42,940 bases of DNA from Gammaproteobacteria bacterium (GTDB lineage: Bacteria > Pseudomonadota > Gammaproteobacteria > SZUA-152), in contig JAKIUN010000030.1 of assembly GCA_021647505.1 (NCBI GenBank), forward strand, positions 1 through 42,940. The letters run 5' to 3'. The notes below the pieces were generated by a model. That model ran no database searches, was not told the origin of the DNA, and saw nothing but the letters and a program-made list of their open reading frames with translations. Of this stretch, positions 12,577-14,294 are shown one piece after another; the first letter of the stretch is position 1, and the number at the start of each line of letters is the position of its first letter. The position numbers were made by a program, and so were the translations under genes.

Positions 12577-13572
12577 ATGCAAGGCTCACTGTCAGATTTT
12601 TTGAAGCCGAGTATTGTTAACGTTCAGGTATTCAACGGTCACCATGCAAGGGTGACATTGGAGCCTTTGGAACGTGGTTTTGGGCATACCCTGGGTAATG
12701 CCCTGCGTCGTATCCTGCTGTCTTCAATCACCGGTTGTGCCGTGATTGAAGTAGAGATCGAGGGTGTGCTTCACGAGTACAGCGCCATTGAGGGTGTACA
12801 GGAAGATGTCATCGATATCCTCCTTAACCTGAAGGGTGTCGCGTTCCAGATGCACGCGCGGGACGAGGTCGAGCTGGTTCTGGAGAAAAAGGGTGAAGGT
12901 CCCGTCACTGCCGGCGACATCACTCTGGGTCATGACGTCGAAGTCATTAATCCGGATCACGTGATTGCGCATCTGACCAAAAGTGGCGAAATCAAGATGA
13001 GACTCAAGGTGCAGAGCGGCCGTGGCTATCAGCCCGCCAATCAGCGCACTGAAGAAGATGAGTCTGCCGTTATCGGCCGCTTGCAGATTGATGCCTCATT
13101 CTGTCCAGTGTCTCGTGTTTCATATACGGTAGAGAATGCCCGTCTCGAACAGCGTACGGATCTCGATAAACTCATTCTTGATCTGGTGACGGACGGTTCG
13201 CTTGACCCCGAAGAGGCCGTCCGTACGGCAGCAACGATTCTGCAGGATCAGCTTTCCAGTTTTGTCGATTTGCAGAGCCGTCAGGAATCCAGTGCGATTG
13301 CTGAAGAGCCCGATGTTGACCCGATCCTGTTGCGTCCGGTCGACGATCTGGAGCTGACGGTTCGCTCTGCCAACTGCCTGAAGGCCGAACAGATTTACTA
13401 TATTGGTGACCTGATTCAGTGCACAGAAGTTGAACTTCTGAAGACACCTAATCTGGGCAAGAAGTCACTGACTGAAATTAAGAGCGTGCTTGCGACCAAA
13501 GGTTTGTCGCTGGGTATGCGTTTGGAAAACTGGCCTCCCGCCAGTCTCAAGGATCAGCGGGAAGGCGGTTGA
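12577..13572 (+). CDS. rpoA: RNA polymerase alpha subunit
   Basis: RpoA (331 residues) has the dimerisation domain ([20 protein letters not shown] at the start), a linker near residues 235-250, and the C-terminal domain with [20 protein letters not shown] and [20 protein letters not shown], which touches UP elements and activators. It is normally followed closely by rplQ. Here a 314-base gap with a 267-base palindromic element separates them. Confidence 0.99.
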
Positions 13573-13589
13573 TCTTTCGAGATTCAACG

Positions 13590-13856
13590 AGTACTTCGCC
13601 AAGGCAATATTGACGGGTTCAGAGCTTTCCAAATGTGTTCAGGCAAGGCGCCGTCCGCAGGTAAGGGTTGCTCCCTTGCCAAGGAAGGCAGCGCTGCATG
13701 GGCGCATTTGGGAAGCTCCCTCCGGGCGGGCCGGGAAGGGCTCATCTGCGGCGTTGCGCCTCTTGCGAAGGGAGCAACCCTTCCCTGCGAGGCGCGCCTT
13801 GCGGCTAAACCCTTCCCGGCCCGCTGAACCCGTCAATATTGCCTTGGCGGAGTACT
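13590..13856. repeat. Long palindromic element between rpoA and rplQ
   Basis: The ends (13590-13622 and 13824-13856) are 33-base inverted repeats with 32 Watson-Crick pairs and one G-T. Inside lie further inverted repeats: 13643-13677 against 13768-13802 (mostly matching), 13727-13740 against 13810-13823 (perfect, 14 bp), and 13622-13637 against 13703-13718 (14 of 16). The inner stems compete with each other, so several folds are possible. No open frame inside looks like a protein. It resembles a non-autonomous, MITE-like or REP-type element that inserted in the operon and must be transcribed with it. No family was recognised. Confidence 0.8.
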
Positions 13857-13886
13857 ACCACAAAAGATTTTATTAAGGAAGTTGTC

Positions 13887-14294
13887 ATGCGCCATCGTCA
13901 ATCAGGTCGACAGTTAAACCGAAACAGCAGTCACCGCAAAGCCATGTTCAAGAATATGGCCTGCTCACTGTTTCGCCATGAAATTATCAGAACTACACTG
14001 CCCAAGGCCAAGGAGCTGCGTGGTGTTGCAGAACCGCTGATTACGCGTGCCAAGAATGACTCACTGACCAATCGCCGTGTTGTCTTCAACCGCATCCGTG
14101 ACAAGGAAATGGTCGGCAAATTGTTCTCCGAGATTGCGCCTCGTTATAAGGAGCGTCCCGGTGGCTATATTCGTATCCTCAAATGTGGTTACCGCGTCGG
14201 CGACAATGCCCCGATGGCATTCGTTGAGCTGATTGATCGTCCTCAGGAAGAGGAAGTCGAGGACGAAGAAGAAGTGGTAGCAGAAAAAGCATAG
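13887..14294 (+). CDS. rplQ: 50S ribosomal protein L17
   Basis: L17 (135 residues) starts at ATG 13887 with [20 protein letters not shown]; the frame is open 48 bases further upstream into the palindromic element, but the family N-terminus and AAGGAAG before 13887 decide. It ends with an acidic tail ([15 protein letters not shown]) longer than that of E. coli. L17 lies at the tunnel exit. It is the last gene of the alpha operon and is followed by a clear terminator. Confidence 0.98.

Follow-up and report, generated by a model that had tools for sequence, protein, structure and literature searches.

A probable MITE with a conserved double-hairpin inside, inserted between rpoA and rplQ of a gammaproteobacterium

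In the window (the whole stretch of contig DNA analysed, 42,940 nt), a 265-nt palindromic element lies between rpoA and rplQ in the alpha operon. It is a mobile element and no feature of that operon: copies are dispersed in the genome, and most congeners have an empty spacer at this place. Taking all of the evidence together, we hold with good confidence that a MITE inserted here, that its family combines a fixed chassis with varied ends, that its fold probably aids its spread, and that the host operon tolerates it as a passenger.

The element and its predicted fold

The limits of the mobile unit were set by comparing empty and filled sites among congeners, together with the consensus ends of young copies (CTA/G...C/TAG). 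The features at this locus are as follows.

12577-13572, plus strand: rpoA, the upstream host gene
13589-13590: left target dinucleotide GA, an eroded duplication, identical in congener G004; TA in young copies
13591-13855, no strand: mobile unit of 265 nt, GTACTTCGCC...GGCGGAGTAC (GTAC...GTAC), with type A ends
13591-13622, plus strand: left terminal arm of 32 nt, the first half of the outer stem, pairing with 13824-13855
13619-13719, plus strand: hairpin 1, a chassis hairpin (covariance model R1, 86.8 bits; covariation)
13644-13650, plus strand: box CAAGGCG of hairpin 1, nearly invariant across 30 hairpins
13689-13694, plus strand: box CAACGC of hairpin 1, CAGCGC in this copy and intact in G004
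13726-13826, minus strand: hairpin 2, an inverted copy of hairpin 1 (covariance model R1, 94.7 bits; covariation)
13751-13756, minus strand: box CAACGC of hairpin 2, conserved
13795-13801, minus strand: box CAAGGCG of hairpin 2, conserved
13824-13855, minus strand: right terminal arm, pairing with 13591-13622 (covariation over 20 elements)
13856-13857: right target dinucleotide TA, from the empty-site comparison
13887-14294, plus strand: rplQ, the downstream host gene

As the first-pass annotation had described, the outer arms (13590-13622 and 13824-13856) are 33 nt long with 32 Watson-Crick pairs and one G-T pair (97% complementary), and the element stands between the rpoA stop at 13572 and the rplQ start at 13887. 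Its claim that some inner repeats exclude one another also held, as the inverted repeat 13643-13698/13747-13802 (56 nt, 77%) competes with the two hairpins of the predicted fold; a further inverted repeat joins 13726-13749 and 13801-13824 (24 nt, 83%). The very stable RNA structure anticipated there was recovered, with a minimum free energy of -190.8 kcal/mol against -112.9 +/- 5.5 for shuffled sequences (z -14.2; 0 of 200 shuffles as good), and the element folded as single-stranded DNA gave a z of -12.4. The predicted fold is a three-way junction formed by the outer arm and the two hairpins. The 265 nt are non-coding, with merely short chance ORFs, and a consensus scan returned no promoter- or terminator-like site.

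Dispersal, empty sites and history of the locus

A mobile repeat had been expected to leave dispersed copies, and the search of its own genome (G000) with the element did return them, mostly at 68-82% identity; hairpin matches numbered 40, at 29 places. Many further copies were found in relatives. When the rpoA-rplQ spacer was compared in six congeners, as had been suggested, it was empty in five (G001, G002, G003, G005, and G006), where it measures about 50 bp (e.g., TTCAACCAGCCACAAAAAG); among these seven genomes, the element occupies the same point of the spacer in G000 and G004 only. With joined flanks as queries, empty sites in congeners were found for about 15 further copies (L002, L003, L004, L006, L007, L008, L020, L038, L042, L299, L301, L314, L315, L317, L318, L319, and others).

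The insertion point is TA-like, and the net gain at most empty sites equals the element plus 2 bp. Young copies carry TA on both sides, and in older copies one or both dinucleotides are altered (GA and TA in the rpoA copy). At rpoA-rplQ, L021, and L037 the net gain is the element plus 1 bp, for which we have no explanation beyond local indels, and a few empty sites deviate by other small indels. L021 and L037 lie at two different points within an ABC-transporter-like gene, so that each species provides the empty site of the other. Tandem copies were also observed in which one copy is inserted into the CTAG that ends another (L282 and L022), partly with different end types, and the same target site carries two different subtypes in G003 and G004. 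In G011, about 65 ends of the same type as those of the rpoA-rplQ copy are nearly all identical, and this near-identity can be taken as a sign of a recent burst in that genome. Many near-identical copies also stand at contig ends of G011 and G002, where recent bursts have broken the draft assemblies as well. A one-hairpin copy next to an rpsO-like gene (L317 in the own genome) is common to G000, G002, and G003 and is absent in G006.

By rpoA comparison, G004 is nearest to G003 and G000 is nearest to G002; yet the insertion is found in G000 and G004 alone, with the same insertion scar. Over the 500 bases surrounding the insertion the two genomes are 93-97% identical, a value that falls to mostly 78-93% at greater distance. 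The simplest account of these sequences would be one insertion that was then spread by recombination between lineages, with independent loss as a possible alternative. Between G000 and G004 the element itself has changed at 4 of 267 positions (98.5% identity), compared with differences at 29.6% of the 4-fold sites of rpoA and 11.7% of those of rplQ. Strong local selection at rpoA-rplQ is not claimed as the sole cause of this identity, since the surrounding sequence, too, looks as if it had been exchanged between the two genomes. Other shared copies behave similarly: L008 shows 97.4% identity where its flanks show 88-92%, and L317 matches its orthologs at 95.7% and 91.5%, the non-coding flank reaching 77-81%. 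Slow change of inserted copies suits a constraint on the fold, with exchange between lineages as a confounder; it could also hint at a possible host function, which would count against a purely mobile reading.

A covarying chassis combined with many ends

Copies extracted from many genomes yielded a common plan, in which full copies consist of an outer terminal arm and two inverted copies of a hairpin of about 100 nt. The 5' half of the hairpin comprises a covarying stem of about 19 bp, CAAGGCG, a covarying 6-bp helix, GCAG, a helix of the form nnAA.GG, and the loop; the 3' half follows with the partner helix, the box CAAG, a helix, the box CAACGC, and the stem. Across 30 hairpins, 90% of cells pair and 29 of 32 pairs have changed on both sides, giving a covariation score of 0.72 against 0.24 for shuffles and at most 0.22 for slid partners. 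The outer arm behaves alike over 20 full elements with different ends (93% paired, 28 of 32 double changes, score 0.75; shuffles 0.20, slid partners at most 0.16). The invariant letters are mainly the imperfectly paired internal-loop boxes (CAAGGCG/CAACGC and GCAG/CAAG), a conservation that is inflated, as these hairpin and element sets were picked by box pattern, whereas the stem covariation lies outside the pattern and is not. Because a process that merely perfects palindromes would wipe the boxes out, we infer that they are under selection; and since stem sequences are free to change provided that pairing is kept, selection would act on the folded form together with the boxes. Full elements measure 258-268 nt (types as delimited) or 284-290 nt for some other end types, and one-hairpin forms measure 163-167 nt.

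The hairpin model, applied as a whole covariance model and not as the box pattern, matched 88 of 274 sampled Gammaproteobacteria, in 74 of 221 genera. When one genome per species was scanned for the pattern, with groups read from record titles (some merely Proteobacteria or Pseudomonadota), the named groups among the matches listed were Gammaproteobacteria in the wide sense (with Burkholderiales and relatives), including Pseudomonas, Stutzerimonas, Azotobacter, Halomonas, Thiobacillus, Sulfuritalea, Methylobacillus, and Sedimenticola. Pseudomonas members of the family are L162, L175, L178, and L214. Viral contigs gave one match, and sequence matching a Stutzerimonas copy is present on plasmids from P. 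aeruginosa, Azotobacter, and Halomonas. The rpoA-rplQ element and its ends were not found on plasmids or phages, and neither were four other end types searched on plasmids.

Several variant forms were observed. A 22-nt module, CCAACAGTAGGCGCTTTAGGCG, interrupts the boxes at CA^A in several copies that belong to different congeners, and part of the hairpin is often missing there (L299, L312, and L315 in the own genome; L325, L111, L029, L330, and L037 near 2775), and it occurs once in another context. From its placement it looks like a site-preferring micro-insertion, which hints that the boxes may be cuttable. Elements of about 54 bp consist of two outer arms joined and flanked by CTAG (L280 and L281, with pattern matches in G296, G298, and G299); these seem to have lost the chassis by a deletion at the hairpin foot. 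Copies from Azotobacter, Stutzerimonas, and Halomonas (L161, L173, and L163) contain a second hairpin with a different, GCGTCGCTCGTCGTTCATTTGGAATGACCAAA-like core, which is a second hairpin type within the family.

On this single chassis, at least eight terminal-repeat types occur in the own genome, with the ends GTACTCCGCC, GTGTGGTGTAACG, GTGCAGTGTCTC/GTGTAGTGTCTC, GTGTAGTGTCCTGAAC, GTGTACTGCGTCGC, TATTAACCCGGCAAC, TACTAAGACAAACG, CTAGAATCCGCAG, and GGGAGCCTCTGATTAATTC. End sequences of the family include GTACTCCGCC/GTACTCTTTCAAGG, GTGTAGTGTCC, and TTAACCCGGCAAC, and other genomes contain more end types. The different ends may reflect several transposase families or one fast-changing family. 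The MITEs of Halomonas sp. M20 have the end sequence CTAGGGTCTGTTGACGTTTCA; in the same genome, an insertion sequence (IS) of about 860 bp, CTAGGGGCTGTTGACGTTTCA...TGAAACGTCAACAGACCCTAG, encodes a 249-aa IS5-family transposase; about 21 bp of terminus are common to this IS and the MITEs there. In Azotobacter, many copies of TAGGTTCTGTTGACG stand at contig ends, the pattern that a multicopy IS with related ends would give.

A transposase with the end type of the rpoA-rplQ element was not found in the genomes searched, which included G000, G011, G233, G014, G006, and G080. An IS5_3-type transposase had no match in G000, and the end of the rpoA-rplQ element differs from the GGGTCTGTTGACG type; the IS5_3 candidate was rejected as a partner, as the IS of G233 has the GGGTCTGTTGACG end and its MITEs have GTACTC. 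An IS630-type partner was likewise rejected, the own genome holding just two DDE_3 fragments below the cut-off, with no matching ends. No transposase was recognised between the ends of L272. L258 was considered as a hairpin-flanked autonomous element and dismissed, as its two one-hairpin copies enclose an ORF that encodes pentapeptide-like repeats. These copies (271-440 and 1598-1778 of L258) have related ends and flank an ORF at 666-1517 on the minus strand, an arrangement that is possibly a mobile cassette.

Proposed explanation and rival readings

We propose that a MITE-type non-autonomous transposon entered the rpoA-rplQ spacer of this lineage at a TA-like site. The cutting and joining at its terminal inverted repeats was probably the work of a DDE transposase, acting in trans and leaving a duplication of about 2 bp. 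Such action in trans would parallel the Halomonas lineage, in which family members share their ends with an IS5-family IS. The element would be part of a single superfamily that joins many terminal repeats to a fixed chassis made of two inverted hairpins with mismatched boxes. The folded form, as a cruciform or single-stranded, would likeliest aid multiplication, with the arms joining the two ends, and the boxes may be the binding site of a common factor, either of the host or of transposition. The alpha operon most likely tolerates the element as a passenger, with transcription running through it.

MITEs are usually seen as relics of one insertion sequence in which the ends alone matter. The chassis needs an added explanation because ordinary MITEs need no conserved inside; here the inside is the conserved part, and the compensatory stem changes across the class indicate that a folded shape is selected in parasitic DNA. 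If the ends swap while the chassis stays, then MITE evolution is modular and the chassis must serve its own spread. A more tentative proposal, which we would put somewhat below an even chance, is that one structure-selected chassis spread through the Gammaproteobacteria, swapping its ends and parasitising several unrelated transposases, with the boxes as the site at which one shared factor binds or cuts folded DNA or RNA. The presence of the family in Pseudomonas, Stutzerimonas, Azotobacter, and Halomonas opens these ideas to test in laboratory strains, and for annotation the model accounts for many 'orphan' palindromes in Gammaproteobacteria, some of them within essential operons.

The first-pass annotation had also raised a new regulatory RNA that splits RpoA from L17 expression. 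As the reason for the element's being this is not supported, and as a primary function specific to the alpha operon it is rejected, because the spacers are empty in most congeners and the copies are dispersed over unrelated loci; a secondary effect on the mRNA is possible. The broader version, in which an RNA uncouples L17 from RpoA (e.g., by RNase III cleavage or attenuation), whether originally or by co-option after insertion, could draw on the very stable fold in the mRNA and on the 4 changes in 267 positions beside far more divergent 4-fold sites in rpoA and rplQ. Absence from five of six congeners, copies across unrelated loci, the lack of any promoter- or terminator-like site in the scan, and the apparent exchange of the region between G000 and G004 nevertheless make it very unlikely, and the slow change is not special to the alpha operon because L008 and L317 are slow too. 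Template switching during replication is an established process, and it could perfect the outer arms in place, so that the covariation would record a mutational process and not selection on the fold; the arms do remain complementary while their sequence drifts. However, the process would pair the mismatched boxes too, yet these are the most conserved letters, and it can add to selection and not replace it. We therefore regard template switching as an improbable substitute for selection on the fold.

With its two imperfect hairpins in inverted orientation and their conserved mismatched boxes, the element resembles a large BIME, which would be moved single-stranded by a Y1 (RAYT-type) transposase recognising imperfect hairpins. 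Against this stand the covarying terminal arms at fixed ends, the 2-bp duplications at most empty sites, and the ends held in common with an IS5-family IS in one lineage, so that we give such a mode of movement only a slight chance. The element might instead be an attC-like recombination site, which a tyrosine recombinase would recognise in the form of folded single-stranded DNA. This would account for a structure kept more than its sequence, for conserved unpaired boxes, and for the 22-nt module that interrupts the boxes at CA^A in several copies of congeners, as if they were cuttable. The copies, however, are scattered singly and not in a cassette array, they have terminal arms and a TA-like duplication, and their boxes appear to differ from the known attC R-box; this possibility appears slimmest of all.

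We return to the MITE reading. Where the first-pass annotation had offered a non-autonomous mobile or REP/MITE-type element, the MITE part stands on the dispersed copies and empty sites, and the element has terminal inverted repeats, a non-coding length below about 600 bp (265 nt), and many dispersed copies. Two further marks of a MITE are incomplete for this copy: its target duplication is eroded, and no autonomous partner with its ends was found in the genomes searched. The REP label does not fit because of the terminal inverted repeats, the TA-like 2-bp duplication, and the 265-nt length; REP/BIME units are hairpins of 20-60 nt that lack terminal repeats and target duplication. REP, BIMEs, and REPINs (PMC3116915) share with the family inverted pairs of imperfect hairpins, dispersal, and lack of self-mobility, but the element is much longer and has terminal arms and a TA-like duplication. 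Rfam returned no family at gathering score, with unrelated miRNA-type hairpin models far below threshold. The open-access papers searched held no account of a class-wide three-armed family, an earlier description elsewhere being possible, and the end sequences searched as strings in papers gave nothing.

Bacterial MITEs include the Correia, QMITE, and Chunjie elements (reviewed in PMC10969869), and the present family is like them in being short, non-coding, bounded by terminal inverted repeats, dispersed, and mostly intergenic, with a duplication that wanes with age, a transcript predicted to fold stably, and probably movement in trans. It is unlike them in its inside, a conserved double hairpin with covarying stems that occurs class-wide with many terminal repeats. 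IS5-family ISs (NCBIfam NF033580; Halomonas sp. M20, L276) likewise have CTAG-flanked ends, and about 21 bp of the terminus of the Halomonas IS are identical to Halomonas family members; in contrast, the rpoA-rplQ copy ends in GTACTTCGCC, and its own genome yielded no such IS. The P. fluorescens intergenic repeats R200 (320 bp) and R26 (352 bp), for which no inverted-repeat structure is given (PMC2718517), resemble the family, by description only, in their size range and their dispersed intergenic copies in Pseudomonas.
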